Assembly: GCF_000485595.1 (NCBI RefSeq)
Contig: NW_014578542.1
Span: forward strand, 1 to 30,803
DNA length: 30,803 nt
From: Priapulus caudatus
Taxonomy: Eukaryota > Priapulida > Priapulimorpha > Priapulimorphida > Priapulidae
Direction of reading: 5' to 3'
Shown here: piece after piece, positions 10,440 through 30,803 of the stretch
Numbering within the stretch: position 1 is the stretch's first letter
How the letters are laid out: every line of letters begins with the position of its first letter
The notes under the pieces: model-generated
Told to the model about the DNA's origin: nothing
Seen by the model: the letters and a program-made list of their open reading frames with translations, nothing else
Database searches by the model: none
Program-made: the position numbers and the translations under genes

Positions 10440-10527
10440 GAAGCAGTACAAGTCGGAATACCTGGAGAAGTTTGTGCCACCGTGGAGCTACGAGTACGAC
10501 CATGGAGAGTGGAAGAAGGTGAAACAG
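10440..10527 (+). CDS. MDM1: MDM1-like exon 3 (SEY repeat and GEWKKVKQ)
   Basis: Acceptor CCGATCGCAG|G, phase 2 in, phase 0 out. Encodes KQYKSEYLEKFVPPW, then SYEYDHGEWKKVKQ. This is the best-conserved block, matching the human segment in which SEYRAKF is followed by a Tyr- and Trp-containing stretch. The nominal donor is AAACAG|GTGAGA at 10527/10528. The last 30 bp of the exon are repeated downstream with the donor, so the real 3' border could also be 10557, 10587, 10617 or 10647, each adding ten residues in frame. Confidence 0.85.
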
Positions 10528-10663
10528 GTGAGAGGAGAGTGGAAGAAAGTGAAACAGGTGAGAGGAGAGTGGAAGAAAGTGAAACAGGTGAGAGGAGAGT
10601 GGAAGAAAGTGAAGCAGGTGAGAGGAGAGTGGAAGAAAGTGAAACAGGTGAGAGGAGAGTGGA
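10528..10663 (+). repeat. 30-bp donor-spanning minisatellite at exon 3 end
   Basis: Four exact-length units plus a partial one follow exon 3 (10528, 10558, 10588, 10618, partial 10648). Each unit starts GTGAGAGGAGAG and ends GTGAAACAG or GTGAAGCAG, so each rebuilds the donor CAG|GTGAGA. The frame stays open through all units, reading VRGEWKKVKQ each time. It then stops at TAG 10666-10668 within GGAATTAGGGTTAGGG, a short telomere-type sequence. Confidence 0.95.
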
Positions 10664-10668
10664 ATTAG

Positions 10669-11565
10669 GGTTAGGGAGTAGGCGCCTCCCTAGACTAGCA
10701 TTATATTACATTTATGTAATACAACATGAACAGCGCATGCGCAACAACTGCTCGGACGATCATAGCGCATACGAACAGGTGTCCGATGCTCGGACGAATA
10801 TCCATGTCCTTTGATGTTATTTCCTAAAATAACATCAGAATATAAAAAATTTTAGGGCACAATTTATTGGTCTAGGCGGCCATCTAACTGCGAACCCCTG
10901 ACCGGCCCCTCCGGTATTGCACATACTGGCGCGCATTGTTACAACTGCCCCCCCTAGTTCCAATATGTGCTAAACTATGTTAATAACAATTAATATGCTA
11001 TTCCAGGGTTTCCCGAAACTTTTAACACACATCGGGTCTGACATTCCTTCGAAGTTGAAGATAATTTGAGGCATCCCATAAATTCTCCGCCACGCCATCC
11101 ATGCGCCGGGCATCCATGTGGGGGGCGCCGGTCCATGCCTTATTAAATTTCCATCTTCGTTTACTTTTGACAATCCCAACTCAGCCATGCTGTGATTTCA
11201 CAACTTGACGCATACGTCTCTGAACAGATCGAGTTTACATGCATATTGGGGGCCGACAGGTGTGATTACCGCCATTTGGTACAACCGGTCCTGGGCCCTC
11301 CCCAATCCATCTGTAAACGACATGGCTTCTAAAATATCTTGTGGAGGACTTTATTCCTACTACACAGTTGACATTCTTTCAATTCAGTTCAATTCAATTA
11401 ACTTTATTTACAGTTATGACAATTACGTTTTGTTGGATTTACGGAAAATATGTGGTCATATACCAGGTTATTGACAAATTAACCGGCATAAGATAATTTG
11501 TAGTCGTGTTTACGCGATTATACCGCCATCTATCTGTTGACATTCTTCCACCATACTTCTCTCAG
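10669..11565 (+). other. Intron 3 of MDM1-like gene
   Basis: About 0.9 kb without a recognised element. A complementary ATGTTATTT/AAATAACAT pair near 10812-10834 can fold. Ends with a pyrimidine-rich acceptor, CATACTTCTCTCAG. Confidence 0.6.
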
Positions 11566-11662
11566 AGCTCGGAGTATGACGAGCAGTACAAGTGGGTGGC
11601 TCCGCCGAGAAAGGAACCCAACGAAGCGTCGCGGAAAGCGAGGATCGATCATGTGCAGGAAG
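11566..11662 (+). CDS. MDM1: MDM1-like exon 4 (SEYDEQYKW repeat)
   Basis: Enters in phase 0 after CTTCTCTCAG and leaves in phase 1 at CAGGAAG|GTAACT. Encodes SSEYDEQYKWVAPPRKE and a basic segment ASRKARIDHVQE. It is the third SEY repeat, with the aromatic/W positions typical of MDM1. Confidence 0.85.
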
Positions 11663-11812
11663 GTAACTCTCATGTTCTAGGTTTCGATACGTGGGTGCGT
11701 CACGTTTCGGCCCCTCGCGTGCAAAGTAACGTGATTGGGCAGAGACAAGATTGCGTAATATTCATTTGCGTATGTGATTTGGTGATCACCAGTAAAGCGT
11801 TATTCAGTTATG

Positions 11813-12173
11813 CAGGGTGCGAAATTAACGCGAGTCCGTAGTCAAATACTGCCTGATTTACCGTCGGACTCCCTGATTTGACATATGCAGGAGTCTGTGT
11901 GACTCCCTGAAAATTCTGCTATACTAACTAGTTGGTTCCAGAGCACGGCCTCCTTATTATTCGCACGCGAAATTACCGTATTTCTTCAGCAAATGTACAA
12001 AGAAAATTTGGCAGACGTGCAACCGCATGAATCTTCAAAATAAGCACATGTTATTGTTAATATCTTTAGTTTTTAACTTCAGACTGCGGACTCCCTCGTT
12101 TTGCCGCGGACTCCCTCTTATTGAGGGCAGGGAGTCCGTTGGACTCCCTTTTTCAAAAGTTAATTTCTACCTG
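11813..12173 (-). mobile_element. CAGGG-ended MITE, copy B, inverted
   Basis: Same family as 8843 but reversed: starts CAGGGTGCGAAATTAACG and ends AAGTTAATTTCTACCTG. It lies in intron 4. GTTATGCA at 11807-11814 recurs exactly at 12174-12181. The last two bases of the left copy overlap the element's own CA, so the duplication is 6-8 bp. Eight bases would fit a hAT-type insertion. Confidence 0.85.
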
Positions 12174-12216
12174 GTTATGCATGTAATAATAATGTAATAA
12201 TAATAATAATAATAAT

Positions 12217-12312
12217 ATCATCGGGAGTAAATAACATGTACAGTTTAAAATAGGCCTATAGGTATAGACTATAATAGGCTGTTAAAAATAACCCAATTAT
12301 TTACCCCTGATA
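12217..12312. mobile_element. Small TA-flanked MITE (TCAGGGGT end)
   Basis: Left TATCATCGGGAGTAAATAAC and right TTATTTACCCCTGATA are imperfect inverted repeats related to the TCAGGAGT family at 1584. ATA triplets flank both sides. Confidence 0.6.
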
Positions 12313-12465
12313 ATATTAATAGTTAGCAAGAATAAAAATGTAATAATAATAATAATAATACCAGTGATGATATTAATAATAACAACAGTAATAACTTAAT
12401 AATAGTAATAGTAAACGATAACTCACCAGCTCCTCCTTGACACCTCCTCCTCCTCCCCTTGGCAG

Positions 12466-12653
12466 TGTTCGATTACAACTACTCCGCGGGCAGGGCCGGC
12501 GGTAAGACGCGCTCGCTGGATCGTCCGCGGCCGGCGTCTGCCGTGCCGTGGGAGCGGGAGGAGCGAGGACGCAGCCGACACCGGACACTGAGCGGGCCGC
12601 AGCCGGCCGCGCCGACACAGAGCAAGCCTGCCGCGGGACTCCGCACGAAGCAC
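12466..12653 (+). CDS. MDM1: MDM1-like exon 5
   Basis: Acceptor TCCCCTTGGCAG|TG, phase 1 in, phase 0 out. Begins VFDYNYSAGRAGG, then a basic Arg/Pro/Ser-rich linker with VPWEREERGRSRHR, ending GLRTKH. Nominal donor CGAAGCAC|GTGAGC at 12653/12654; reading on gives VSES and a TAG stop. The exon end and donor are repeated at least four more times downstream. Confidence 0.8.
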
Positions 12654-13470
12654 GTGAGCGAGTCGTAGAGTGGGAGGAGGGGAGGAGAGAGAGGAGGAGA
12701 GAGAGGAGGAGGAGGAGGAGAGGAGAGAGAGAGAGGTGGGGCAAGAGGGAGGAGGAGAGAGAGAGGTGGAGAGAGAGGGAGGGAGACTGTGCCTGTCGTG
12801 GGACTCCGCACGAAACACGTGAGCGAATCGTAGAGGGGGAGGAAGGGAGGAGAGAGAGGTAGAGGAGAGAGGAGGAGGAGGGAGAAGAGGAGAGAGAAGT
12901 GGAGGGAGAGAGAGAGGTGGAGAGAGAGGGAGGGAGACAGAGACTGTGCCGGTCATGGGACTCCGCACGAAACACGTGAGCGAGTCGTAGAGGGGGAGGA
13001 GGGGAGGAGGGGGAGGAGGAGGAGAGAGGAAGAGGAGAGAGAGGAGGAGAGAGAGCGAGAGAGAGGGAGGAGGGAGAAGAGAGGTGGAGAGAGGGAGGGA
13101 GATGGAGACCGTGCCGGTCGTGGGACTCCGCACGAAACACGTGAGCGAGTCGTAGAGGAGGAGGAGAAAGAGGAAGAGAGAGAGAAGGGAGGAGGAGAAA
13201 GAGGAAGAGAGAGAGAAGGGAGGAGGAGAGAGAGAGGTGGAGAGAGAGGGAGGGAGGGAGACTGTGCCTGTCGTGAGACTCTGTATGAAACACGTGAGCG
13301 AGTTGTAGAGGGGGAGGAGAGAGAGGAAGAGAGAGAGGGAGGAGGGAGAAGAGGAGAGAAAGGGGGGAGGAGAGTGAGCGAGTCGTATTGTGGGAGGAGG
13401 GAGGGGAGTAGAGAGAGAGAGGATGAAAGGGAGAGAATGGGGGGAGGAGAGTGAGCGAGTCGTAGAAGGG
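12620..13470 (+). repeat. Donor-spanning degenerate satellite after exon 5
   Basis: The exon-end segment GGACTCCGCACGAA(G/A)CAC followed by GTGAGCGA(G/A)TCGTAGAG occurs at the true exon (GT at 12654) and again with GT at 12819, 12976, 13141 and 13294. Truncated copies keeping only GTGAGCGAGTCGTA have GT at 13374 and 13451. Spacings are about 165, 157, 165, 153, 80 and 77 bp. Between copies lies GGAGGA/GAGAGA purine-rich filler. Confidence 0.92.
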
Positions 13471-13532
13471 GAGGAGAGAGAGGTGGAGAGAGGAGGAGGA
13501 GGGAGAGAGATGAAAAGAGAAAGAGAGCAGAT

Positions 13533-13611
<79 letters not shown>

Positions 13612-13612
13612 A
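12660..13612. repeat. Polypurine (GA/GGA) tract, intron 5
   Basis: Nearly 1 kb of purines on the + strand, broken only by the exon-end copies, finishing in a pure GA run (about 13533-13605). It could form intramolecular triplex DNA. Three minus-strand frames stay open across it because CT repeats lack stops; they are not genes. Confidence 0.9.
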
Positions 13613-13761
13613 TTGCGAGACAGCAAACACAAGCGATAGATTTTTTCCCAAAATAAAATTTGTCGAGAGAAAAAACGTAAAAAGTGTGACTTCTCCCGTA
13701 CCCTCCCATCTCCTCACTGACATCACCCGTTTGTGTTTTCCCACGTTTGGTGACCGCGCAG

Positions 13762-13875
13762 GGCTACCACATCGACCCACACGCCGTGCGACACCACGAT
13801 GGCAGACGCTCCGTCTCCGAGGTGAGGGAGCCACCGCGCAAGGAGAAGTCGGACACGAGGAGTTCTCACGCCAAG
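13762..13875 (+). CDS. MDM1: MDM1-like exon 6
   Basis: Acceptor GACCGCGCAG|G, 114 nt, phase 0 to 0. Encodes GYHIDPHAVRHHDGRRSVSE, then VREPPRKEKSDTRSSHAK. Donor GCCAAG|GTAGGT. A second donor-like site, TCCGAG|GTGAGG, lies inside at 13821/13822 and would shorten the exon by 54 nt without changing frame. Confidence 0.75.
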
Positions 13876-14013
13876 GTAGGTTTCTTCATTTCTCGACATT
13901 CTGCCTCGGCGTCTCGGGCAGCGGTGGCTCCATCGTGTGGCTATTTAAACAAACTCAGTGCATTGAGCGTGTTGGAGTGATACTTGCAGTGTCTCGTGCA
14001 CTTGTTCACTTGT

Positions 14014-14116
14014 CAGTTATGAACCTGTTATAGCTATGATGTTAGTTATGTATTAGTTATGAACCTGTTATAGCTATGATGTTAGTTATGTATTAGTTAT
14101 GAACCTGTTCAGTTAT
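14014..14116. repeat. 40-bp tandem repeat, intron 6
   Basis: About 2.5 units of AGTTATGAACCTG, then TTATAGCTATGATG, then TTAGTTATGTATT. GTTATGAACC recurs at 14016, 14056 and 14096. Confidence 0.93.
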
Positions 14117-14360
14117 GATGTGTTGATCACAAACTACCCGAAGTGGAACATTCATCATCGATCGTAGTGTGAGCACGTCTAGCGTTTACCAGCAGTATCG
14201 GGTTTACAACGCGATTATAGTTCGCGTTTAATGTACGCAACGACCACACGATGGCGCTACTCGTCATCTTCCCTACGTCTCATCTAATATATCTCATTTC
14301 GCCCCGTAGTCTGTGAGCGCGCGTACGCTCCCATCTCTTATCGCACACTTTGCTCACCAG

Positions 14361-14486
14361 GAGGACCCGGCGCTGCGATACCGCGCAGGCGAGCGGCGAG
14401 CAACGCGCGGACAGACGAGCGAGTACTCGCGGCAGTTCCACGCGCGGACGCCGCTCGAATCGCCGGTCGTCGCCGCCGCGGGCAAG
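14361..14486 (+). CDS. MDM1: MDM1-like exon 7 (SEYSRQF repeat)
   Basis: 126 nt, phase 0 to 0. Encodes EDPALRYRAGERRATRGQ, then TSEYSRQFHARTP, the fourth SEY repeat, and ends VVAAAGK at donor GGCAAG|GTAAGC. Two acceptors fit the frame: TTTGCTCACCAG at 14360 and TTTCGCCCCGTAG at 14309. The latter adds 17 residues starting SVSARTLPSL. Confidence 0.82.
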
Positions 14487-14543
14487 GTAAGCGTGACGAC
14501 GATCACGTCCCCCGCGCGCCGCGCACGTGCTGTCATCGTAATG

Positions 14544-14825
14544 CAGGGGTAGAAATTAACTTTTGAACAAGGGTCCGTTCAAAAAGAGGGGGTCCGCAGC
14601 AAAATGAAGGAGTCCGCAGTCTGAAGTTGTAAATTAAAGATATCAATTATCAACGCATGTGCTTATTTTGAAGATTTAATATTAAAATTTAACTAACAAG
14701 AAATCTTGGTTTAGTATAGCAGAATTTTCAGGGAGTCACACGGACTCCTGCATATGTCAAATCATGGAGTCCGACAGTAAATCGGGGAGTATTTGACTCC
14801 GGACTCGCGTTAATTTCGCACCCTG
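14544..14825 (+). mobile_element. CAGGG-ended MITE, copy C
   Basis: Start CAGGGGTAGAAATTAACTTT, end TTAATTTCGCACCCTG. It has lost part of the interior, including the TGCCAAATTTTC block. Inserted in intron 7, 58 bp after the exon 7 donor, so it may influence splicing. Flanks (GTAATG/GTATAA) match only partly. Confidence 0.83.
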
Positions 14826-15164
14826 GTATAAATGTGACGTCAAAGTCACACACACGGGCAAAAACCTGTACATCAGACCTGTATGTCAATCACATGCAGT
14901 TAAAGACCTGCNAGTAAATAGTACATAGTCTGTGCACACATATTTTACACTAAACACACGTGTATAGTCTATGCATGCATAATATATGTGTGTCCTTCAA
15001 CGACTTATTAAGAGGAAAAGGATTATATATGTTATATAATTATTTTAGGCTATGTATGCAGCGATCACGTTCTCAATGCACCACCGTATATATTCTAGGT
15101 GTTAGTTACATCTCTAGCTGAGTTCAAGCGCTGTTTGCTGCGATCACATCTTACTCACACACAG
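14826..15164 (+). other. Rest of intron 7
   Basis: AT-rich, with one ambiguous base (n) at 14912. No feature recognised before the acceptor of exon 8. Confidence 0.5.
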
Positions 15165-15396
15165 TATTCTCCGCGCCCTTCCTGTCTAACCGTTACGACG
15201 GTTGCTTTCCGCAGTCTCGCGTCCGCGTCGGCCATGTCGCAGGACTCCCTCGACTCCGTCGCGACGCTGCAGTCGCACACAGGTGGCGCCACCGCCGCTG
15301 CTGCCGCCGCAAGTCCGAAGAAGCAGAGAGGCGGCAAGACGACGCAGCGGCAGCGGCAGCAGCAACAGCGTCCGCACACCGTCGCCGCTCCAACGG
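15165..15396 (+). CDS. MDM1: MDM1-like exon 8
   Basis: Start 15165, after TTACTCACACACAG, is chosen because it gives phase 0 to match exon 7. The stronger-looking acceptor TTGCTTTCCGCAG at 15214 would break the frame. Encodes AMSQDSLDSVATLQ, a poly-Ala run, SPKKQRGGK and a Gln/Arg-rich segment, ending in phase 1 at CCAACGG|GTTAGT. Low-complexity linker sequence, so family evidence is weak here and support comes from phase continuity on both sides. Confidence 0.62.
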
Positions 15397-15739
15397 GTTA
15401 GTATTTGATTTCCGCTCGAGTTCGTCGCTAACTTTAAGCTCGGTGGCATCCGGTGATAAGCTGATCGAACACAGATGGGGTAGTGCAGTATATTCTGGGT
15501 CCTGGATCAGAATTGCTCTGCGATAGGGGCAAAAACGCTGCTTAGTAACAAATGCCGTAAAGTCGACATTTTGGCGGGAACACATAAAAACACGTGCAGA
15601 TTGTTCTAGCACGACCGACCTGGTGACAATATCCAAGGTGACATCGTTATCTCATTCGGATGGACAGTTCGATCATAGGCGCTACTTTACCGTCCGCATT
15701 CAAGAACATTTGACCCCCCAAAAAAAGTTAAATTAACTG

Positions 15740-16360
15740 ATGCCTATAATGGTATCCCCGCGACGAAGCGGCGGGGAATACTATGGGGTTCATGTCGGTC
15801 AGCCGCCACCGCAGACATTTTTCTTCCGCGCTAGAACTCGACCCCTAATGATGTAGCGGACCAAAACATCAGTCTACTTACACATCTGGGGAAGGTGTCG
15901 CAGACCAAACCAGGTCACGGCCCAACCTTTATTTGACAGTGACCTTGCCGGCAGCAGAGTCTCTTCCGTCTAGATACGGCCCCCTAGTGACTAGCTTGCG
16001 AGCAAACTTCGCTATACTTACCATCCTTGGGCCGAGATGGGGCGCCGTACCAAAACCACGTCCACTGCGGCTCTTTATTTGGACCTTAACCTATGACCTT
16101 GATCATATGTCTCTTCCGCTCTATAACGCGGCCCCTAATGACCTGAGAAACGCGACCAAACTTAGGAAGGACGTACACATCTTCGGGGGAAGGTGTGTCG
16201 CATACCGAAACCAGGGACTGCACCCTGTATTTGACATTTGACCGTTGACCTTCAATCATAGTTCGCGTCCGCTCTAGAAAACTCGTCCCCTAATGACTAG
16301 CAAACCGAGCAAACTTCGCTATACGTACACATTCTTGGGGAGAAGTCGCGTACCAAAACC
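15740..16360 (+). repeat. Degenerate ~150-bp dispersed or tandem repeat, intron 8
   Basis: Three to four diverged copies share, in order, TTTGAC..TGACCTT, TCTTCCG.TCTAGA, CCCCTAATGA, CAAACTTCGCTATAC, ACACATCTTGGGG and GTCGCGTACCAAAACC. The left edge holds the CCCCGC..GCGGGG palindrome. Its frames are not coding. Confidence 0.65.
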
Positions 16361-17100
16361 CCCCTAAGGCAACAATTTTAACATACTGAGCACATCTCAG
16401 CAGATGAGTTTTGCAACAAACTTGGCTTTGCCGGACTTATTGAACTGGACCGACCGTCTACGTCCTTTACAGGATATTTCATTCAGATACTAGAGCACCG
16501 GGATACATGTAGTTGGCGACAACTGCCCGTTCAGTTCATTAACGAATGCGGGAGCGAGGAATCGTGTATCGCATGCTGCGAGGAAGGCGTGTGTGAACAC
16601 GGGTTAGGTGAGGACAGACGCGAATACCGCGCTCGGCCTGAAACGTCAATTTGCGGCATGTTTCTCCTGACCAGAAAAGCGTCTTGAGGTGCTAAAAAGC
16701 AGTTTTGCGTGTGTTTGCGCCGTTTGACGTCCTAGCCAAAGCGATGCCCACCGCAGGTGCTCACCCAGTAGGGCGGTCCAGGGGCCAGCCCCCCTCCGCA
16801 AGTCTTTTTGGAAAAACCGTGGGAATATTGCGTGCATGTCGAAGCATAGGTGCGATGTTAGTTCAATAAAGCTGACGTGATTGAGAGAAGAACTGATGGC
16901 CCGTCAGCCTGGCGGGTGTGGACAAATTTCGGTGTGCGGCTGAGATTTTAGCGAGGCGCCTGCCTCGCGGGTGTCATGCAGGGGAAACACGGCGCACGGT
17001 ACTCCGCGCGGCTTGTGTAAACAGGCACCATCGCAAGTACATCAAAGCTTGATTTGCTACGCGCGCTCACCCTCGCCGTCCACCTGTTCGCAGCAGCGCC
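16361..17100 (+). other. Intron 8 middle, no feature recognised
   Basis: Unique-looking DNA with mixed composition. A short GCGAGG..CCTCGC hairpin sits near 16952. No gene supported. Confidence 0.45.
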
Positions 17101-18423
17101 GAAGAGTTATATTGATACGTGATATTGTACCGTGCGATCACCTCGCGTCCGCCTTCGCAGCAGACGCGAATAGTTATATTGATACGCTTGATCGTGTACG
17201 TGCGCAATCACCCTCGGGCGGCGCCGGCTTCGCGAGCCAGCGCGAATATGTTATTGATACGGGAGGTGTACGAGGCGATCACCCTCGCGGCACCTGTCGC
17301 GCCCGCGCGAATATTTATAGGGATACGGTTGATTTGGACGTGCGATCACCCTCGCGTCCGCCTGTTCGCAGCACAGCGCAATATTATATTGATACGCTTG
17401 ATTGGATACGTGCGATCACCCTCGCGGTCCACCGTCTTCGCCAGCCGCGCGAAGTATGTATATTGATACGGTGATTTGACGTGCCGATCACCTCGCCGTC
17501 CGCCTGTTCGCCAGAACGCGAAGATGTAATATTGATACGTTGATTAGGTACGTGCGATCACCTCGCGTCCGCCTGTTCGCAGCAGCGCGAATATTTATAT
17601 TGATACGCTTGATTGTACGTGCGATCACCCCTCGCGTCCGCCTGTCGCGCCAGCAAGCGCGAATATTTATATTGATACGTTGATTTGTACGGGCGATCAC
17701 CCTCGCGTCCACCTGTTCGCAGCCGCGCGAATATTTAATATTGATACGTGCATGGGCGACGGGCGCATCACCCTCGCGCGTCGGCCCGCTTCGCAGCCAG
17801 CGCGAATATTCTATATTTGATACGTGATGTGTACGTGCGATCACCTCGCGGCCACCTGTTCGCCAGAGCGACGAAATATTTATATTGATACGTTGATGCG
17901 GTACGTGCGAATCACCTCGCGGCCACCTGTTCGCCAGCAGCGCGGAATATTTATATTGATACGTTGATATTGTACGTGCGTCACCTCGCGTCCCCTGTCG
18001 CAGCCAGCGCGAATTATTTATATTGATACGGGGATTTGTACGGGCGATCACCCTCGCTCCACTGGTCGCAGCAGCGCGAATATTGATATTGATACGTTGA
18101 TGTGTACGCTGCCGATCACCCTCGCGTCCGCCTGTTCGCAGCCAGCGCGAATATTGATATGATAACGTTGAGTGTACGGGCGATCACCCTCGCGTCCCGC
18201 CTGTGCGCCAGCAGCGCCGAAGATTTATATGGATACGTTGATGTGTACGGCGATCACCCCTCGCGTCCCACCGGGTAGCGCCAGCAGCGCGACTATTTAT
18301 AATGATACGGCTGATTGTGTACGTGCGATCACCCTCGCGTCCGCCTGTTCGCAACAGCGCGAATATTTATATTGATACGTTGATGTGTACGTGCGCTCAC
18401 CCTTGTTCTTGCCTGTTTCGCAG
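17101..18423 (+). repeat. ~70-bp acceptor-bearing satellite before exon 9
   Basis: About 19-20 units of roughly 66-75 bp. Each carries TACGTGCGATCACCCTCGCG, TCCGCCTGTTCGCAG, CAGCGCGAATATTTATA and TTGATACGTTGAT. GATACG-type marks recur from about 17113 to 18374. The last unit runs into TTCTTGCCTGTTTCGCAG, the acceptor of exon 9, which aligns with the CTGTTCGCAG of every unit. Units differ mainly by one-base indels. Confidence 0.93.
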
Positions 18424-18549
18424 CGAGCAGAGCAAGGAAGCAGCCAGAGCCACGGCAGGGCAAGCCCGCGGGGCGCGCGAGGCCAGTCAGACCGCTCTCA
18501 CTGCCACTGGACGACAGCTCCGTCAATTGCGACTGCGGTGCTGACCAGG
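18424..18549 (+). CDS. MDM1: MDM1-like exon 9
   Basis: Acceptor TGCCTGTTTCGCAG|C, phase 1 in and out. The chosen frame reads ASRARKQPEPRQGKPAG, then a Pro/Leu stretch, LPLDDSSVNCDCGADQ, and joins exon 10 in frame. The other two frames do not connect. Donor GACCAGG|GTGAGC. Mostly basic linker with a short acidic/Cys segment; no domain recognised. Confidence 0.65.
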
Positions 18550-19086
18550 GTGAGCGATCGCTACGCAGTAGATATACTATGCAGAAGGATACGCAGTAGT
18601 TAGCGATTACTTATAGGAATTACTTAATACCTAACGACTTATAATATATAACTTAAATAATAACTTACTATAATCAAGAGGAAGCTTTGCTGCACACACA
18701 TCAGCCTAAAATCTCAGTTGGCAGTATTCCAAAGCAGACAATTGAATGTAGCCTTTAGTAGTAAGCGTAGTACTATCGAGTAGGGTGAGTTGATCATTGA
18801 TCTATTGAGTAGGTGAGTCATCAAGCTCGTACATGGGAGCTAGAAAAGATTTCACTGTCATAAAAGTGAAGAACCTAATAGTTGAATAACCACATAAATA
18901 CAGCGAACCAATTAAACCACTTAAAAATATCTGAAAAATCCATCCGAGCTACAAAAACTCGCAAACAGTCCCTAAAACCATGCAATCCACATTCTCGCGG
19001 GAATTGCCGAAAATGCCAAAAATACCAACACAACAAACACCCGTTCATCCTCGCAGCTGACACCCCCGCCGCTGCCTCTACTAAAC
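18550..19086 (+). other. Intron 9, first half
   Basis: AT-rich with two near-copies of a GAGTAGG(GT)GAGT segment near 18780-18815. No gene supported. Confidence 0.5.
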
Positions 19087-19412
19087 TCCTAACCCTAACC
19101 CTAACCCTAACCTTAACTTTCTAACCCTAACCCTAACCCTAGCCTTAACCCCAACCCTAGCCCTAACCCTAACCCCAACCCTAGCCTTAACCCCAACCCT
19201 AGCCCTAACCCTAACCCCAACCCTAGCCCTAACCCTAACCTCAAACCTAGCCCTAACCCTAACCTCAACCCTAGCCCGACCAGGCTGTGCGACGGATTGT
19301 CTATACAGTATCCTATACGGTATCCTAACCCTAGCGATACCGTTTCTTGGAGCTAACCTCAACCCTAGCCCTAACCTCAACCCTAGCCCTAACCCCAACC
19401 CTAACCCTACAA
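19084..19412 (+). repeat. Telomere-like CCCTAA array in intron 9
   Basis: Starts with near-perfect CTAACC units (hexamer of the TTAGGG/CCCTAA type) and degrades into CTAACCTCAACCCTAGCC-type composites. A non-repeat insert lies at about 19280-19350. The orientation is CCCTAA on the coding strand, and the array ends about 40 bp before the exon 10 acceptor. Confidence 0.93.
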
Positions 19413-19450
19413 CTGACCATAATCCTCCCCCGGCGCCGACGCCATTGCAG

Positions 19451-19681
19451 AATTCGGATCGGTGTCGGAGGACGAGGAGGCGGGAGACGTGACCCCGACG
19501 CCCGGCCACGCCCCGGCCCTGCCTGGCCACGCCCCAGCCACGCCCGCGTCCGTCGCCGACGTGCACTCGTCGATGAAGAGGAAGGTCTACCGCGCGGCGC
19601 TGCCGTTGTCGGAGCCGTCCCACCAGGGGGCGCCACCCGTGGTCGTGTCGCTTGCCGATCTTAAGCGCCCGCTGTTGACGG
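19451..19681 (+). CDS. MDM1: MDM1-like exon 10
   Basis: Acceptor GACGCCATTGCAG|A, 231 nt, phase 1 to 1. Encodes SVSEDEEAGDV, repeats of TPGHAPALPGHAPA, then SSMKRKVYRAALPLSEPSHQ, then GAPPVVVSLADLKRPLLT. Donor TTGACGG|GTGAGT. The same GAPP motif occurs in exon 1 near a Ser/Pro stretch. It precedes the last exon directly, and the phase agreement supports both neighbours. Confidence 0.82.
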
Positions 19682-19887
19682 GTGAGTAGCGAGCGTCGCA
19701 GCACGTGTGTAGGCAGCGTGCGCGCGGTGGGACTACGCGGCAGTGAGTTGGGTTCGTTACGGTGTGGGAACGCGTACTAAGCCTATCGCGTGTAGCCGAT
19801 GTGCTTGCTGTATGCCTCGCTCGCGACATCGATTCAATGTCATGTCGAAACGAACGTCGTATTTCTGAGGTGCTGGGCCGCGCGCGC

Positions 19888-20118
19888 AACCTCTAACCCT
19901 GCGACGACCTCTAACCCCCACAATGACCTCTAACCCTGCAACGACCTCTAACCCTGCGACCTTTAACCCCACGATGACCTCTAACCCCGTGACAACCTCT
20001 AACCTTGTGACGACCTCTAACCCTGCGACCTCTAACTCTGCAACCTGTAACCCTGTGACGACCTCTAACCCTGCGACCTCTAACCCCACAACCTCTAACC
20101 CTTGTGACCTCTAATCCG
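19888..20118 (+). repeat. CTAACCC-based repeat in intron 10
   Basis: About fifteen units of CTCTAACCCTGCGAC type, 12-17 bp, varying at the GCGAC part. They derive from, or converge on, the same CTAACCC core as the intron 9 array. Reaches to 20 bp before the exon 11 acceptor. Confidence 0.92.
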
Positions 20119-20138
20119 CGCATTTGTTGTTCGTTCAG

Positions 20139-20299
20139 CAGACGACAGGGATGACGCGCACTCTGTGTCTTCGATGTCCGTCGCCTCCAGCTGCAGCCTA
20201 GCGTCCAACGTGTTGGACCGCGCGCGCGAACGCCAGCACCACTTCTGGGGTCCGCCGGCCGACACCGACGAATCGTCCGCCGACCCGTCCGACAGGTGA
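20139..20299 (+). CDS. MDM1: MDM1-like terminal exon 11, copy 1
   Basis: Acceptor TTGTTGTTCGTTCAG|C, phase 1 in. Encodes ADDRDDAHSVSSMSVASS, then CSLASNVLDRARERQHHFWG, then a short acidic tail ending SADPSDR and TGA at 20297-20299. The Asp-rich start, Ser run, Leu..Ala-Arg-x-Arg helix and FWG match the C-terminus of vertebrate MDM1, the strongest family evidence in the gene. The stop lies inside GACAGGTGATC, which also reads as a donor, and the 103-bp satellite begins at this very point. Confidence 0.88.
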
Positions 20300-20901
20300 T
20301 CCCCGCGACCTCCACGTACGGTCGGGGTCACACAGGGGTCGCGACCTTTGTGCGACCTTTGCGAGGACGACGCGACTCGTGGCGCCATCTCGCTACAGGT
20401 GATTGCGGCGACCTCCGCGCACGGCTGGGGTCACGCAGGGGTCACGACCTTTGTGCGACCTTTGTGAGGACGACGCAACCTGTGGCGCCATCTCGCTACA
20501 GGTGATCCCTGCGACCTCCACGTACTGTCGGGGTCACGCAGGGGTCGCGACCTTTGTGCGACCTTTGCAAGGACGACGCGACTCGTGGCGCCATCTCGCT
20601 ACAGGTGATCGCCACGACCTCCGTGCACGGCTGGGGTCATGCAGGGGTCGCGACCTTTGCGAGGACGACGCGACTCGTGGCGCCATCTCGCTACAGGTGA
20701 TCGCCACGACCTCCACGTACGGTCGGGGTCATGCAGGGGTCACGACCTTTGTGCGACCTTTGCGAGGACGACGCAACTCGTGGCGCCATCTCGCTACAGG
20801 TGATCGTGGCAACCTCTGCGCACAGCCGGGGTCACGAAGGGGTCGCAACCTTTGTCCGACCTTCGCAAGGACGATGCGATTTGTGGCGCCATCTCGCTGC
20901 A
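20296..20901 (+). repeat. 103-bp satellite, block 1 (6 units)
   Basis: Units begin GTGATC(C/G) and end CATCTCGCTACAG. Starts at 20296, 20399, 20502, 20605, 20697 and 20800; five of the six are about 103 bp and one (20605) is 92 bp. Each contains GACCTCC, GGTCGGGGTCA, GCAGGGGTC, GACCTTTG and GGACGACGCGACTCGTGGCG. The last unit is cut at CTCGCTGCA, where the exon 11 duplication begins. Confidence 0.95.
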
Positions 20902-20977
20902 CTCTAACCCTGCGACCTCTAACCCCACAACCTCTAACCCTTGTGACCTCTAATCCGCGCATTTGTTGTTCGTTCAG

Positions 20978-21138
20978 CAGACGACAGGGATGACGCGCAC
21001 TCTGTGTCTTCGATGTCCGTCGCCTCCAGCTGCAGCCTAGCGTCCAACGTGTTGGACCGCGCGCGCGAACGCCAGCACCACTTCTGGGGTCCGCCGGCCG
21101 ACACCGACGAATCGTCCGCCGACCCGTCCGACAGGTGA
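20978..21138 (+). CDS. MDM1: MDM1-like terminal exon 11, copy 2
   Basis: Base-for-base identical to 20139-20299, including the acceptor and about 75 bp of upstream intron repeat. It is offset by exactly 839 bp. It could serve as an alternative last exon giving the same protein, or may be an inert recent duplicate. TGA at 21136-21138. The 100% identity points to a recent event or an assembly effect. Confidence 0.8.
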
Positions 21139-22085
21139 TCCCCACGACCTCCGTGTACGGTCGGGGTCATGCAGGGGTCACGACCTTTGTGCGACCTTTG
21201 CGAGGACGACGCGACTCGTGGCACCATCTCGCTACAGGTGATCGCCACGACCTCCACGTACGGTCGGGGTCATGCAGGGGTTGCAACCTTTGTGCGATCT
21301 TCGCGAGGACGACGCGACTCGTGGCGCCATCTCGCTACAGGTGATCCCCGCGACCTCCACGTACGGTCGGGGTCATGCAGGGGTTGCAACCTTTGTGCGA
21401 CCTTCGCAAGGACGACGCGACTCGTGGCGCCATCTCGCTACAGGTGACCCCCGCGACCTCCACGTACGGTCGGGGTCATGCAGGGGTCGCAACCTTTGTG
21501 CGACCTTTGCGAGGACGGTGCGACTCGTGGTGCCATCTCGCTACAGGTGATCCCCGCGACCTCCGCGCACAGCCGGGGTCGCGCAGGGGTCGCGACCTTT
21601 GCAAGGACGACGCGACTCGTTGCGCCATCTCGCTACAGGTGATCGCTGCGACCTCCGTGCACGGGTCATGCAGGGGTCGGGACCTTTGTGCGACCTTTGC
21701 GAGGACGACGCGACTCATGGCGTCATCTCGCTACAGGTGATTGTGGCAACCTCTGCGCACAGCCGGGGTCACACAGGGGTTGCAACCTTTGTCCGACCTT
21801 CGCAAGGACGATGCGACTTGTGGTGCCATCTCGCTGCAGATGATCGCCACGACCTCCGCGCACGGCCGGGGGCACGCAGGGGTCACGGCCTTTGTCTGAC
21901 CTTTGCGAGGACGACGCGACTCATGGCGCCACCTCACTACAGGTGATCGCGGCGACCTCTGCGCAGGGCCAAGGTCGCGACCTTTGTTCGACCTTCGCGA
22001 GGACGACGCAACTCGTGGCGCCAACTCGCTGCAGGTGATCGCGGCGACCTCCGCACGACCTTTGAGAGGACGACGGTCAGCGTGA
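21135..22085 (+). repeat. 103-bp satellite, block 2 (about 10 units)
   Basis: Same unit as block 1, with starts at 21135, 21238, 21341, 21444, 21547, 21639, 21737, 21840, 21943 and 22035 (last one partial). One unit has lost the leading G (AGATGATC at 21840). Frames here read RGRRDSWRHLATGD-type repeats and stop at ACAGGTGA in each unit; they are not genes. Confidence 0.95.
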
Positions 22086-22368
22086 GACTCGCCGCGTCCG
22101 TCTCGCCAGCGGTGACCACGAATATCGCAAACGACCGGTGGGTAGGCGGTCGGTGTTCACGATGGCCGTTTAGGAGGGTTTACTGTTTTTTAGTGATTTC
22201 TAGCAGACGATTATTTTCGTGCAGTTGTAGGCGGTGCGTCGCTGAAACGACAGCATGTCTCTTTGTTATGGGCTTGGTCATAAACACACTCCTTGCGGTA
22301 GGTTTTCTGAGTAGTAATTGAATAGTGAAGGCTTGGTGTCATTAATGACGTCCCATATATATATATAC
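22086..22368. other. 3' flank of satellite, no feature seen
   Basis: No polyadenylation signal or gene could be supported here. Confidence 0.4.
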
Positions 22369-22698
22369 GGGGGTAGAAATTAACTTTTGAACAAGGGAGT
22401 CCAACGGACTCCCTACCCTCTAAAAGAGGGAGTTCGCGGCAAAATGAGGGAGTCTGCAGTCTGAACTTCAAAATTAAAGATATTAACAATAATGCATGTG
22501 CTTATTTTGAAGATTCATGCGGTCGCACGTCTGCCAAATTTTCTTTGGAGATTTGCTGAAAAAATATGATAATTCGGCGAGGCCGTACTCTGGAACGAAC
22601 TAGTTAGTATAGCAGAATTTTCAGGGAGTCACACGGACTCCTGCATATGTCAAATTAGGGAGTATTTGACTCCGGACTCCTGTTAATTTCGCACCCTG
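22369..22698 (+). mobile_element. CAGGG-ended MITE, copy D
   Basis: Start GGGGGTAGAAATTAACTTTT (first bases altered), GGGAGTCCAACGGACTCCCT hairpin, TGCCAAATTTTCTTTGGA, end GTTAATTTCGCACCCTG. Inserted in a TA-rich site, so the target duplication is unreadable. Confidence 0.85.
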
Positions 22699-24136
22699 TT
22701 ACGTGTATATATATATATGAATATCGATATATATAACTATGACTCTCAATGCCGGTCTGTTGCTATTTGCCCCACAGGCACAGTGAGCGAAAATGAAATG
22801 GACTAATCTAACATGTTTTGCTGCCATTAGATGGCAGCACCGGCTTTCTTGGCATCGGGGAGCGTCCGACGGTGCCACCAGGTGTCGCCACTAGCTAATT
22901 CCGTGCGACGAACATAACAGGTGCTGATGTTTTAGACGTAGTGGGTTATGTATCGCGCGGACGCTGCCGCCTGCTGCGCAGCTCTCGATCGTGTTCTACG
23001 CACTGACGTCTGCTGTCTCCCTCCCTGCGGAGTCGCGTCTCTTATATATTTATCTATGTATCTGTAAACCTACGTGTGTATGCGTGCGTGCATGGGCACG
23101 TGCATTAGTGTGCGCGCGTGTGTGTGTGTGCATTAGTGCGTGCGCGTGTGTGTGTGTGCATTAGTGCGTGCGCGCTTGTGTGCATGCGTGTGACTGTGTG
23201 ACTGTAGGTGTGGGGGTTTATGTGTGTATTTGATATTCTCGATGGGTTTCTTTTCTATACTCATTCCTCTTATATATTTGCATACATCTTTGTGGTGCGT
23301 ACCTTGACGGAGGTTATGTGGGCTAGAGCACTTCTCTGTCTGTTTATGAGCATGACAAGCCCCTCACAAAATCGTAGGGATCTTATCTTTCGTAAGCTAC
23401 ACATTTTTACTAAATTCCGGAAAATTTATACATTCCTTTTATCGATTATATATGTATATGTATATATCTCTAATGAAATGCACGGGAGTCATTGTCAGTT
23501 AGTAGAGGAAGCGATGCAGTAAGCTTAAAGTCGTTGGTGTGAATCGTTGAATTATTTATGTTGAGCTTAGGGAGTTGCCTACAGTATTATTGTGCATGCG
23601 TGCATGTGCGTGACTGCGTGTGTTCGCGCGACTGGGTGTGTGCGCGTGCGCGTGTGCGTGAGTGCGTGCGTGTGTATGGCAGCCTTTCTGTGTTTGTTGT
23701 GCCCAAGTACATTCGATTACCTATAATACCAGCGTAAGCAGCGTTATTCAGAATGCCTTCATCCTCTGTCCAGTAAGCTTGTAGGAGAGATGTTGCACCG
23801 CCACGACACTAACTTATTCGTTGTCGTTGTGTCTGAATACTGCGTAAAACTCTCTGCTTTCAATCCAATATCGCAACATAACTATAACAGTATCTAGGCA
23901 TAGTCATATATCGTGGCAGTTCTATATAGGAGTATTTGGTCACAGTCCGATACTGTAGCATATATGTATGAGTGTCTACCATCTCTATAATATCCTAACG
24001 TCATAATTGAGTTCTGCGGGTTCCGATGAATTGCACTGTCTGCCGTGTTTGGGGGTGGGGAAGGAGTCAAAGAAGGATTGGTAATATTTACGTACATGTT
24101 AATAATACTCTATGGTGGGAATTGATGCGTGCTGAC
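22699..24136. other. Intergenic, GT-rich, no gene supported
   Basis: Contains imperfect GT/GC tracts near 23065-23205 and 23590-23680. The open frames lack splice context and recognisable content. Confidence 0.5.
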
Positions 24137-25688: not shown

Positions 25689-25689
25689 T

Positions 25690-25862: not shown

Positions 25863-25905
25863 AATAGAGTTCCTTTATAGAGAGTCTCTATAAAGGGACT
25901 CTATT
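25863..25905. repeat. Near-perfect 20-bp inverted repeat
   Basis: Left arm AATAGAGTTCCTTTATAGAG and right arm CTCTATAAAGGGACTCTATT pair with one mismatch around a 3-base loop. No T-run follows, so it is not a bacterial-type terminator. Probably a foldback remnant. Confidence 0.88.
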
Positions 25906-26007
25906 CCACAAGCAAAAATTTTTTTGCATGCATTTATTATTGTGACGAGCGTTTCTTTGGTGTTATTTTCGCTGAGCTTTGCAGGTTTATTTGCAGCGTT
26001 GATATGA

Positions 26008-26050
26008 TCAGGAGTGTCATACTATATAGATATATATGATGCCACTCCTG
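26008..26050. mobile_element. Minimal TCAGGAGTG foldback
   Basis: TCAGGAGTGTCAT and ATGCCACTCCTG are inverted copies around an AT core. Belongs to the family at 1584 and 29545. Confidence 0.65.
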
Positions 26051-26197
26051 CGCTGATCGCATGATGTGTTACTAGGCAATCTCGTTATGTATGACACACT
26101 AGTTTATAATCGCGCGTCCCACAGTTGGTCGCAAGATGGCTTTTGTCACACTCAATCCTAGTTTAGGTATCCGGTAAATAAATCATCATGATTGTGA

Positions 26198-26560
26198 CCC
26201 TAACCCTAACCATAACCTTAATTCTAGATGTAACCCTAATCCTAACTCTAAAGCTAACCATAATCCTTACCCTATCCCTAATCCTAACCTCAACCCTACC
26301 CCTAGGTTTAACCTTAATGATCATCCTATCCCTACCCCTAAGCCCAACCCTAACTCCAACCTCAACCCTACCCTAAGCCCAACCCTAACTCCAACCTCAA
26401 CCCTACCCTTAAGCCCAACCCTAACTCTAACCTCAACTCTACCCCTAAGCCCAACCCTAACTCTAACCTCAACAATACCCCTATTAGCGTAACCCTAACC
26501 CTAAGCTCAACCTTACTCCTGGCCGTAACTCGCCCTATCCCTAATTCTACCCTAAGCTCA
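26198..26560. repeat. Degenerate telomere-like CCCTAA/CCAACCCTAACT array
   Basis: Starts with ACCCTAACCCTAACC and decays into composites such as AAGCCCAACCCTAACTCCAA. Orientation is CCCTAA on +, as in the MDM1 introns. Frames through it (Leu/Thr repeats) are artefacts. Confidence 0.9.
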
Positions 26561-27970
26561 TAATTAAAACCCGGGATCCTGAAGTAGGATTGAACACCGT
26601 GGTTGTAGTGGATTATAGGAAATGAAGTATGATAGCAGAGAGTGGGAGCTGAGTGGTCAGGCATACCCGTGGCAACAAGCCAGACGGGGCAGCCATGGAC
26701 TCTCCTATGATGTAAGAGCATCGGGGGCGGACGTGCTAAAGGGAGGGCTACCACTGAATTCATTCGAGTGAAGGCATATTGCAGGGGTAATTCGTGATTG
26801 GCGATTTTGCGTTCGACGTTGTAGAAATACGAAGAGTTATGGTTGGGGGGGGGGGTTAGGGTCATGGTTAGTGTTAGAGGGGTTTGCCTTGTGTAGCTCC
26901 AATAACGCGATATGTCTACACTCGATATCTCGGTATCTGACAAGCACGAGAGATTTGCCACGAGAATCCGCCTTCGGAGGTTTAACGATGGCGGGAAGGA
27001 ATGTCAGCGAGGCTTCCGTGACATTCCGTCTGTCTCTGTGTTCTTACACGCGAACGTGCATTTAGTCTGTTTACCCCTCTGTTTCGCACGAAGCGGAATG
27101 TCGTCTGTGTTCTTGTGTGTCCACACAATAAATGTACCCGCTGGAAATACGTGAAGCAATCGTCTACGTAGAATCTATCTCGTCTCTATCTATCTATACT
27201 CCGTGCACATACATACACAGCTCTCGTCTTTCTTCTATGCTCCATACACGTACAAACTTTCTACTGAATATTACGGTGCATTTCAACGTAGAACGTTGGT
27301 GTGTCAATTCAGAATGTCGGTGTAGAACGTGTTAGAATCATATTCCATCAGTTCATTTAAACTCTCTTTTGTCAACTCTCAGTTTAAAAATTTCACGTAA
27401 TTAGACGATTCTTCAATTCTTTTTATGCACACAAACTTTCTACAGATTATCTTAAAGTTAACGTCTAATTATAGTTTTAATTACTCTCCACTTGTTCCGA
27501 TTTCTACATCTAATTTTTTGTTCTCTTTCTGTATTCCATAGTAAAATATATTCTTTTATATTAAAAAAAAACAATATATACTCTCAAAGAGAAGAGACGC
27601 AATCTACCAGTTAACATTGTTCTCTAAGCTACTGTGATTCCGAATACACATATTAGTCACTCTCCGTTAAACAACAGCACACAAACGGTTTCTGTGAAAC
27701 TATTTATTTTTATATTCTCTTGTTAGACATCTCTGTATTCCATTCCATCACACCAGTGCATCTGTACAGTTGTACATATAAAAACGATATCGTAATACCA
27801 TCAAGTAAAACTCCGCTACGTAAACTTAAAATGCTTTCATAATGATAGTTGCACTTCTTCAATAGCACACATATACACAATATATAGATTGGGAAATATT
27901 AATAAGATATATATATATATATGTATAATATGTATGATTTATGTTTAAAAAGATCTCCTGTCTAGACATG
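26561..27970. other. Intergenic, no gene supported
   Basis: AT-rich from about 27350. A G-run lies at about 26846. TTTATT at about 27703-27708 could be a minus-strand polyadenylation signal but is too far from the gene end to claim. Confidence 0.45.
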
Positions 27971-27973
27971 AAT

Positions 27974-28115
27974 GTTTAAACCACTGCGGATGCTCAGGTA
28001 ACATACCTGTGCTTGTGTTTAAACCACTGCTGATGCTCAGGTAACATACCTGTGCTTGTGTTTAAACCACTGCTGATGCTCAGGTAAAATACCTGTGCTT
28101 ATGTTTAAATCACTG
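27974..28115. repeat. 43-bp tandem repeat, about 3.3 units
   Basis: GTTTAAACC, CACTGCTGATGCTCAG and GTAACATACCTGTGCTT recur with starts at 27974, 28017, 28060 and 28103. GTTTAAAC and AGGTAACATACCT are palindromic. Confidence 0.94.
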
Positions 28116-28219
28116 CTGACTAATATCACTGCACGATAATCATTACGTGATCCTGATATATAATACATATATATTATGATTATCTGTGATGTAGTGAATT
28201 TATCATAATGCGTAACTAT

Positions 28220-28790
28220 CATGATTTAGTAATATGATGTAGTAAGTCATGACGCAGTAATACCATGATGTGGTAGTGTCATGATGCAGTAATATCATGA
28301 TGTTGCTAGTGGTCATGATGCAGTAATATCATGATGTCGTAAGTGATCATGATGCAGTAAATACATGATGTCGTAGTATCATGATGCAGTAATATCAATG
28401 AAAGGTAATATCATGATGGCAGTTATCATGATGTCGTAGTTGTACATGATGCAGTAATATGCATGCATGTCGTAGTGTCCATTAGTGCAGTAATATCATC
28501 GTAGTAAGTCATGAATGCAATACGTATGATCAGATACATGAGTGGTAGGTCAGCGATGACCGTAGTGTCATGATGCAGTAATATCATGATGTCGTAGTGT
28601 CATGATGCAGTAATATCATGATGTCGTAGTGTCATGATGCAGTAATATCATGATGCAGTAATATCATGATGTCGTAGTGTCATGATGCAGTAATAACATG
28701 ATGTCTAGTGCTCCATGATGCAGTAATATCATGATGTCGTGGTGTCATGATGCAGTAATATCATGACATAATGATATCATGATATAATAA
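28220..28790. repeat. ~32-bp tandem repeat, about 17 units
   Basis: Unit CATGATGCAGTAATAT plus CATGATGTCGTAGTGT, itself two related halves of 16 bp. Well kept at the right end and scrambled by small indels at 28380-28560. Confidence 0.93.
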
Positions 28791-28927
28791 TCAATTGATG
28801 TCACACCAGGATGTCCTTATGTTTTCCCTGACGTTGAAAACAGCGTGAGGAGCTCTGAGCATCATCGTCTGCTGTCTGGAACCCAGCAGGGCAATGTCTT
28901 GGACACATCCAGCCTTCACTAGAAGCC

Positions 28928-29154
28928 CAGGGCTCGTTATTAGAAACATAATTACCCTCAACATTTGTCTCAACATTAACGTTTTCTCGTAGACCGTTGA
29001 CAGAAACACGGTACAAGTTACGCGTTTCTCATGCGCAGTGTATAGAGGTGCAGTCTATGAGAAAAAGTAAGTTAAGTGTAAACGTTATGTTTAAATGTTG
29101 AGACTAATTAAAAATGTTAAGAAAACTAATTTTGTTCTTGACAACGGGCCCCTG
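28928..29154. mobile_element. CAGGGCTCG-type MITE, second copy
   Basis: Left end CAGGGCTCGTTATTAGAAAC, right end GTTCTTGACAACGGGCCCCTG. Internal AACATTTGTCTCAACATTAA pairs with AATGTTGAGACTAATT. Same family as 24137. Flanking duplication not evident. Confidence 0.75.
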
Positions 29155-29261
29155 CCTCTCGAATGAAGCCGACCTCTAACGAAGCCCAACCCATGATGAA
29201 GCCCACCCCCTAGTGAAGCCATCCTGCTGATGAAGCCCCGCTCGCTCTCCTGCTGCCCGCC

Positions 29262-29452
29262 TCACAGCTGGAAGTCCTGCACAGACGACGGGTAGTGGCC
29301 GGGTCGCGAGCGGTTGGTACGGAGGCTGCGCACGCTGTACGCCTCCGAGTACGGGTCGTCGGGATGCGGCGGCATGGAGACGGGCTGCAGCTGCATCGAC
29401 TTGCGTGAGATCGTCGAGTGCGCGTCGCTGACGTAGGCCTGGTTCACCTCAC
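29262..29452 (-). CDS. Last exon of unidentified minus-strand gene
   Basis: Minus-strand exon after acceptor ACGCGCGTTGCAG, phase 1 in, with TGA at 29264-29262. It encodes GEVNQAYVSDAHSTIS, RKSMQLQPVSMPPHPDDPYS, EAYSVRSLRTNRSRPG and HYPSSVQDFQL at the C-terminus. Rich in Ser, Tyr, Arg and Pro with several [S/T]-x-R and Y-S type sites. It has the character of a disordered cytoplasmic tail of a membrane or adhesion protein, but I do not recognise the family. GC- and CpG-rich against AT-rich surroundings, like the MDM1 exons, and phase-compatible with the exon at 30032. Convergent with MDM1, about 9 kb apart. It could not be named without a search. Confidence 0.72.
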
Positions 29453-29544
29453 CTGCAACGCGCGTGAGTGAGCGTGAGAATCACCGTCGCGTGCGTGGAT
29501 GCTCACACAATGCTATTACAGTATTGCAATATCACATTATTACA

Positions 29545-29626
29545 TCAGGAGTGCCATAATATCAATATCAATATATATAGATAGATACGTATATATATAT
29601 ATATATATATATTATGACACTCCTGA
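29545..29626. mobile_element. TCAGGAGTG MITE in last intron of minus gene
   Basis: TCAGGAGTGCCATAATAT at left and ATATTATGACACTCCTGA at right, with an AT core. Flanks TACA/ATACA. Family of 1584. Confidence 0.78.
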
Positions 29627-30031
29627 ATACATCATTAGGCTACATTATTGCAATAGTGGACAGTGTATGTCTACAATAGAGGACAACGTATGTCTACAAT
29701 AGTAGGCAAAGCGTGTCTGCAATACTGTCTACAACAATGTACCAAATAGTCTCACTATACTCTCACTGACTATGTAAGTGAACGATCTTCACCTACAACA
29801 ACGTACCTAATGTAGCCACTACACATGTCAACGAAATTGTCTTTATGAGAATACAGGTGGCGCCACGAGCGTGTGTTATACATCTCGACAGCATTAACAC
29901 ATGTTCGAGTGCAGCATACAACCGGTTTACGTTGAATGGTATTGCGCTCAGTGAATCAGTAATGCTTATCATTCTGATGTGATTAAGGGAGGAAATGAAG
30001 GATTTCATCGGACATCCGACGATGCGCTCAC
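29627..30031 (-). other. Intron between last two exons of minus gene
   Basis: Near 29650-29750, short reiterations of CTACAATAG(TG)GACA; otherwise unremarkable. Confidence 0.5.
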
Positions 30032-30082
30032 CTCTGTAGACGCTCGGTCTGTACATCGAACCGTTGACGGACGCAGCGCCAT
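30032..30082 (-). CDS. Penultimate 51-nt exon, minus gene
   Basis: Minus strand: acceptor TTTTCGTTACAG|AT, donor CTACAGAG|GTGAGC. Phase 1 on both sides, 17 codons, reading DGAASVNGSMYRPSVYR. Because both phases match, it can be skipped without changing frame. The end PSVYR|G resembles GSIYK|G of the preceding repeated exon, suggesting the two share an origin. Confidence 0.68.
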
Positions 30083-30250
30083 CTGTAACGAAAAAGAAAC
30101 ACGTAGCAATATATCTCACATGGCGCGTACTAAAGCGACACGTGCATTATTTTCGCATGCCGCACGCAAAAACCTCCAGATTCTCAGCCTTCACATTAGC
30201 TGCCTGGTTACTTTTGAATTGCTTAGATTAGGAGCGAGTCGCGAGATGCT

Positions 30251-30803
30251 CTTACCTTTATAGATGGAGCCACCCATGTTGGTTTCGCTTGACAGCCACA
30301 CATATCGCGTCGCGAGCACTGCAGCGAGGATTGCTCTTACCTTTATAGATGGAGCCACCCGTGTTGGTTTCGCTCGACAGCCGCACATATCGCGTCGCGA
30401 GCACTGCAGCGAGGATTGCTCTTACCTTTATAGATGGAGCCACCCGTGTTGGTTTCGCTCGACAGCCGCACGTATCACGTCGCAAGAATTACTCTTACCT
30501 TTATAGATGGAGCCACCCGTGTTGGTTTCGCTCGACAGCCGCACGTATCACGTCGCAAGAATTACTCTTACCTTTATAGATGGAGCCACCCGTGTTGGTT
30601 TCGCTCGACAGCCGCACGTATCACGTCGCAAGAATTACTCTTACCTTTATAGATGGAGCCACCCGTGTTGGGTTCGCTCGACAGCCGCACATATCGCGTC
30701 ACGAGCACGGCAGCGAGGATTGCTCTTACCTTTATAGATGGAGCCACCCGTGTTGGTTTCGCTCGACAGCCGCACGTATCACGTCACGAGGATCGCTCTT
30801 ACC
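30251..30803 (-). repeat. 73/85-bp donor-spanning satellite, minus gene
   Basis: Eight copies of the donor (CTTACC on +, GGTAAG on -) at 30251, 30336, 30421, 30494, 30567, 30640, 30725 and 30798, spaced 85, 85, 73, 73, 73, 85 and 73 bp. Each full unit reads on the minus strand GTAAGAG, a variable part, GCGGCTGTCGAGCGAAACC, AACACGGGTGGCTCC and ATCTATAAAG. The long form has an extra GAGCACTGCAGCGAGG-type stretch. The array runs off the window. It overlaps the exon segment at 30256-30287. Confidence 0.95.
30256..30287 (-). CDS. Preceding exon segment (ETNMGGSIYK), minus gene
   Basis: Minus strand: sequence coding ETNMGGSIYK followed by donor CTATAAAG|GTAAGA, phase 1 out, compatible with the 51-nt exon. 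The 5' border is uncertain: an AG at 30288-30289 fits, but no convincing pyrimidine tract precedes it. This is the copy nearest the 51-nt exon of a unit present eight times, most others reading ETNTGGSIYK. Confidence 0.5.

Follow-up and report, generated by a model that had tools for sequence, protein, structure and literature searches.

Minisatellite arrays running across exon edges of an MDM1-like gene and its neighbour in Priapulus caudatus

Do exon edges attract tandem duplication, or does the ordinary growth of minisatellites simply come to a halt there? This question is raised by a stretch of 30,803 nucleotides from the priapulid Priapulus caudatus (contig NW_014578542.1, positions 1 to 30,803, called the window in the following), in which an MDM1-like gene on the plus strand and an adjoining gene on the minus strand carry tandem arrays whose units hold copies of exon edges. 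The original prediction had described five such arrays and suggested seeding at AGGT-type junctions as one possible cause. What it observed holds for the most part and adds a further example to a published kind, but it is not established that a special process seeded at junctions is at work. Most probably the arrays are minisatellites of the type called "mirages" in amphioxus, with their ordinary turnover halted at the exon edges by selection.

All five arrays were recovered by Tandem Repeats Finder (TRF) close to the positions originally given for them, and aligning each edge with its neighbouring unit showed that the repeat passes across the exon edge in five of five cases (Table 1). Four of these edges are splice junctions, while the one at the end of the MDM1-like gene is a stop codon and not a junction. 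In the exon 3 array each unit consists of 24 exon and 6 intron nucleotides, the first unit holding the last 24 nt of exon 3 together with its donor (10527|10528), and five CAG|GTGAGA donors follow each other at 10527, 10557, 10587, 10617 and 10647. The first unit of the exon 5 array comprises the last 28 nt of the exon and its donor (12653|12654); seven GTGAGCGA sites are found in this array and the exon side is kept in five of them. On the minus strand seven AAG|GTAAGAG donors are spaced by 85, 85, 73, 73, 73 and 85 bp, each being preceded by about 60 nt of exon-like sequence, and a CTGCAG acceptor-like site belonging to a 63-nt exon is kept with two of the seven; in the two units nearest the edge the repeat takes in this exon and both of its flanks. 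The exon 9 array shows 16 acceptor-like CGC(C)AG sites 5' of the acceptor at 18423 and matches through that acceptor (18423|18424), followed by at most about 12 gapped nt of exon. In the stop array the shared exon part measures 8 nt, TGA included. Counted from the stop, there are 15 CAGGTGA sites, including the two that belong to the two copies of exon 11. Thus the claim that an exon edge is copied in every unit holds strongly for three arrays and thinly for those at exon 9 and the stop codon. As in mirages, units span the exon–intron boundary in all four splice arrays, thinly at exon 9, and splice signals are copied in many units of each of them. A cross-comparison of the unit consensus sequences gave, among the matches listed, short likenesses; the donor arrays of exons 3 and 5 share as much as 15 nt, which may reflect their common purine-richness.

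For the chance estimates we used a list of 12 arrays with a period of at least 16 and a score of at least 90, which together make up 6155 bases or 29% of positions 9546-30803. Seven of the 12 cross no exon edge. With plain TRF ends the arrays contain 2 of the 24 splice junctions where 6.6 are expected, but this strict overlap test is unfair to the finding as TRF clips the exon 9 and minus-gene arrays. In a refined test on a hand-merged list, the ends of the edge arrays were taken from alignment and those of the remaining seven from TRF or hand merging, a choice that leans slightly towards the finding. Under free placement 3.6 arrays would be expected to cross one of the 25 exon edges, and five of the 12 do so (P = 0.27). 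If the six arrays in MDM1 introns, occupying 3112 of 9140 intron bases (34%), are kept in their own introns, three crossings are seen against 1.3 expected (P = 0.079). A list-free test, which scored every 24-nt stretch having a copy at 20/24 identities within 600 bp, found such near copies for 24.8% of the MDM1 intron positions (n = 8890) and for 0.7% of the coding-interior positions (n = 1518), the latter set excluding roughly 12 nt next to each edge as well as the exon of the minus-gene array. Near copies exist for 4 of the 25 exon edges, namely the exon 3 and exon 5 donors, the stop and the minus-strand donor, and none was found by this test for the exon 9 acceptor. Edges thus take an intermediate place, in keeping with arrays that are common in non-coding DNA and end a short way into the exons.

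These numbers suggest the following course of events. The arrays would arise and expand in introns and flanking DNA by slippage or unequal exchange, and where the first duplicated segment happened to straddle an exon edge, the units would come to carry the copies of that edge which are seen today. Growth would be tolerated solely on the non-coding side, with purifying selection as the likely reason for coding interiors nearly free of copies. Splicing probably continues at the authentic site, and most of the copies would be neutral decoys, as has been suggested in print for amphioxus Adh3 and globins. No special attraction to AGGT is required. In the four arrays of the MDM1-like gene it is the outermost unit that holds the authentic edge as modelled.

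Several points weigh against this explanation. If exons are taken to exclude arrays, with the overlap between an array and coding sequence limited to about one unit, the expectation is 0.9-1.5 crossings, compared with the five seen (P = 0.0005-0.0087), and four or more crossings still give P = 0.006 to 0.046. The minus-gene array copies almost a whole exon, which coding selection should resist unless the copies are skipped. Divergence of the edge unit, compared in the minus-gene and exon 3 arrays only, points both ways: in the former the edge unit departs furthest from the majority (5/60 vs 1-4 in the other six units), which speaks for the explanation, and in the latter it is not clearly the most diverged, as it differs at 1/30 and one of the four inner units does likewise. 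Finally, the presumed kinship with the amphioxus mirages is one of structure only. The three chance tests disagree, and the exclusion and own-intron nulls, as well as the 12-array list, were devised after the data had been seen. The statement that five boundary-linked arrays lie far above chance is not robust; there may be a modest excess at edges, for which the exclusion null leaves room, but it is not established.

Alternatively, splice junctions themselves might seed duplication, for example through AGGT microhomology, R-loops or splicing-linked breaks, and arrays would then begin preferentially at exon edges, as in intron gain of the Rogers type. The low P values of the exclusion null speak for this idea, as do the exact start of the stop array at ACAGGTGA and the intron gain from duplicated splice-signal segments documented in the passages cited below. 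They are countered by the free-placement and own-intron results (three of six arrays in the latter) and by the list-free test, in which exon edges have copies no more frequently than positions in introns. Furthermore, the repeats do not begin at AGGT but include 24 nt of exon 3 and 28 nt of exon 5, and the exon 5 donor, CAC|GTGAGC, contains no AGGT at all. With near copies at 4/25 edges compared with 24.8% of intron positions, and with seven of 12 arrays off the edges, seeding at AGGT junctions is not supported and we regard it as unlikely. Still somewhat less probable is a wider proposal, according to which splice junctions are preferred birth sites of arrays genome-wide in this lineage, with some arrays (the exon 3 donors, for example) acting as splice-site arrays of variable length, which would alter the size of the protein from one allele or tissue to another and feed intron gain.

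If used, the copies would have consequences for splicing that differ from edge to edge. No stop interrupts the coding frame through the exon 3 array and all five donors are in frame, so that each later donor would add the decapeptide VRGEWKKVKQ. A later donor of exon 5 would add an in-frame TAG ending 15 nt beyond the first donor, and its use is disfavoured because of this stop. In the stop array, whichever two ACAG|GTGA copies were spliced together, the same stop codon would be recreated, which makes this array a candidate for silent intron gain. One could conclude that the copies are retained as alternative or decoy splice sites, the exon 3 donors giving isoforms with 0-4 extra decapeptides. 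The donor consensus is MAG|GTRAGT, and the five identical exon 3 donors, each matching it at 8/9 positions, with 30-bp spacing and an open frame, speak for this reading; in human duplicated genes boundary tandem repeats can, according to the passages cited, yield alternative splicing and novel introns (PMC2812944). However, a stop-free period divisible by three is not rare, the TAG after exon 5 argues against a use of later donors there, and Adh3 data together with reverse transcription polymerase chain reaction (RT-PCR) on globin genes suggest, in the cited part of PMC3087553, that mirages leave regular splicing undisturbed. We therefore hold retention for splicing to be very unlikely.

The stop array also contains a complete second copy of exon 11, together with its acceptor and the adjoining end of intron 10 (Table 1). 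The duplicate exon starts at 20981, 839 bp downstream of the first, and is identical to it at 158/158 nt; over the 354 nt of the duplication there are 10 mismatches, every one in the array part past the stop. Annotation pipelines may call this copy as an extra terminal exon. Copy numbers or entire arrays could in part be artefacts of assembly or sequencing. TRF reports 12-13% indels in the arrays at 17049-18403, 28234-28766 and 19889-20102, and the arrays at exon 5 and the stop have 9-10%. Uncorrected long-read noise could account for these indels, and for the first three arrays sequencing or assembly noise may be involved. The window holds 2 N, and comparable trouble is mentioned in the cited passages on lancelets, where one amphioxus mirage seemed mis-assembled in the draft genome and the copy number of the PGBD5 repeat was unequal in two assemblies; the same PGBD5 repeats were, on the other hand, upheld by re-sequencing. 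The units here differ by substitutions too, the 30-bp array reaches its 97% match free of indels, and the 7% indels of the minus-gene array accompany its 73/85-bp steps. An artefact thus appears the least probable of the explanations considered.

The plus-strand gene (9546-20299) was modelled from the sequence alone as 11 coding exons with in-phase joins and 538 codons including the stop. Its protein matches the Pfam family MDM1 (PF15501) in two stretches with E = 2.3e-5 and 23.9 bits, and the gene is named only "MDM1-like" because this score is below the curated cut-off of 27. The C-terminal FWG is a presumed likeness to human MDM1. In protein searches E 0.01 was reached by none of the 7987 scored candidates for the whole protein and by none of 10 candidates for residues 108-185. 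For the peptide of the minus-strand gene no Pfam match was obtained.

Table 1. Positions of the modelled exons, the exon-edge arrays and other repeated segments in the window.
Feature	Coordinates	Strand	Description
Exon 1	9546-9775	+	phase-consistent splice model
Exon 2	10085-10186	+	phase-consistent splice model
Exon 3	10440-10527	+	phase-consistent splice model
Exon 4	11566-11662	+	phase-consistent splice model
Exon 5	12466-12653	+	phase-consistent splice model
Exon 6	13762-13875	+	phase-consistent splice model
Exon 7	14361-14486	+	phase-consistent splice model
Exon 8	15243-15396	+	phase-consistent splice model
Exon 9	18424-18549	+	phase-consistent splice model
Exon 10	19451-19681	+	phase-consistent splice model
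Exon 11	20142-20299	+	phase-consistent splice model; stop codon 20297-20299
Exon 3 array	10504..10664	+	30-bp unit, 5.4 copies, 97% match, no indels (TRF)
Exon 5 array	12626..13608	+	~165-bp unit and 77-80-bp derivatives, purine-rich (TRF, alignment)
Exon 9 array	17049..18435	+	~71-bp unit, 19.4 copies, many indels
Stop array	20292..22054	+	103-bp unit, begins at ACAGGTGA of the MDM1-like stop
Second exon 11 copy	20902..21255	+	intron 10 end, acceptor and whole exon 11, inside the stop array (alignment)
Minus-gene array	30247..30803	-	73/85-bp unit, cut by the window end
Minus-strand gene, two last coding exons	30082-30032, 29452-29262	-	sequence-only model; stop at the 29262 end
Minus-strand gene, additional 63-nt exon	last base 30256	-	recurring donor; inside the array that the window end cuts
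~330-bp interspersed repeat	8860-9190, 11820-12170, 14545-14840, 22365-22700, 24165-24490		copies found by eye

Further repeats are present in the window. Degenerate telomere-like CCCTAA arrays lie at 19088-19409 and 26197-26520, one of them in intron 9 and ending 41 bp 5' of the exon 10 acceptor, and an array of the CCTCTAACCC type (19887-20102) in intron 10 ends 39 bp 5' of the exon 11 acceptor; such pyrimidine-rich arrays adjoining acceptors might provide pyrimidine tracts. The 43-bp array at 27973-28119 lies outside the modelled exons, and its unit combines the near-palindrome CAGGTAACATACCTG with a donor-like CAGGTAA at a place where no exon edge is modelled. The interspersed repeat of about 330 bp is marked by GGGAGTCC motifs and has about five copies by eye, one in opposite orientation, those at 14.5, 22.4 and 24.2 kb falling in the direct-repeat families D17-D20; no exact match was found with a 38-base pattern in viral contigs and a 25-base pattern in prokaryote contigs. 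An inverted repeat of 88 nt with 84% complementarity (arms 3244-3331 and 6718-6805) surrounds 3386 nt with broken minus-strand frames (3837-5865), and the whole element at 3244-6805 looks like a decayed DNA transposon. Six pieces of its 3.8-5.9 kb part gave three matches in Pfam with E 0.06-0.09, all under the cut-offs.

Arrays across exon edges offer a visible intermediate for models in which tandem duplication leads to intron gain and alternative splicing, they are a hazard for gene annotation, and the cluster described here would make a good test locus. Among the literature matches listed, no genome-wide count of such edge-crossing arrays was noticed at the level of titles and beginnings of abstracts. 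The passages cited on the earthworm metallothionein gene describe intronic minisatellites and no boundary-spanning repeats.

The closest known system are the mirages of amphioxus, tandem duplications of exon–intron boundaries in several genes, for which PMC3087553 (2010) refers to Adh3 and other loci and gives credit to work published in 2002 on the Adh locus of amphioxus. According to the cited passages of this work, mirages occur at BflGb6 on the acceptor side and at BflGb9 at the 3' boundary of exon 2, their units measure 150-160 and 157 bp in the globin genes and 10-72 bp in Adh3, their length is unstable, and the edge unit of the globin mirages is left out of homogenisation. Further repeats, with units of 60 and 108 bp, are reported for the splice sites of PGBD5 in the cited part of PMC3902484, which also refers to troponin C. 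The arrays of P. caudatus resemble those at Adh3, troponin C, BflGb6, BflGb9 and PGBD5 as minisatellite-like duplications over donor or acceptor boundaries in several genes, with units of 10-160 bp and copied splice sites; they differ in that five arrays lie in two adjoining genes, one of them at a stop codon, and are known from a single sequence. The original prediction had tied local duplication at exon edges to intron gain: the duplication itself is supported, and the link to intron gain was, again in the cited passages, already proposed from mirages for the amphioxus globin genes. The tandem repeats at exon–intron boundaries in human genes of segmental duplications (PMC2812944) likewise have units of about 30 bp in few copies, but in the part cited they were compared between paralogs with transcripts and sometimes form novel introns, while here the sequence stands by itself. 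Intron gain through tandem duplication, described for potato RdRp and for fission yeast SPOG_01682/SOCG_00815 in the excerpts cited (PMC4974935, PMC3629103), shares the duplicated splice-signal segments, with 24-nt repeats in fission yeast; in contrast to these cases, the arrays described here sit at the edges of modelled introns or past the stop.

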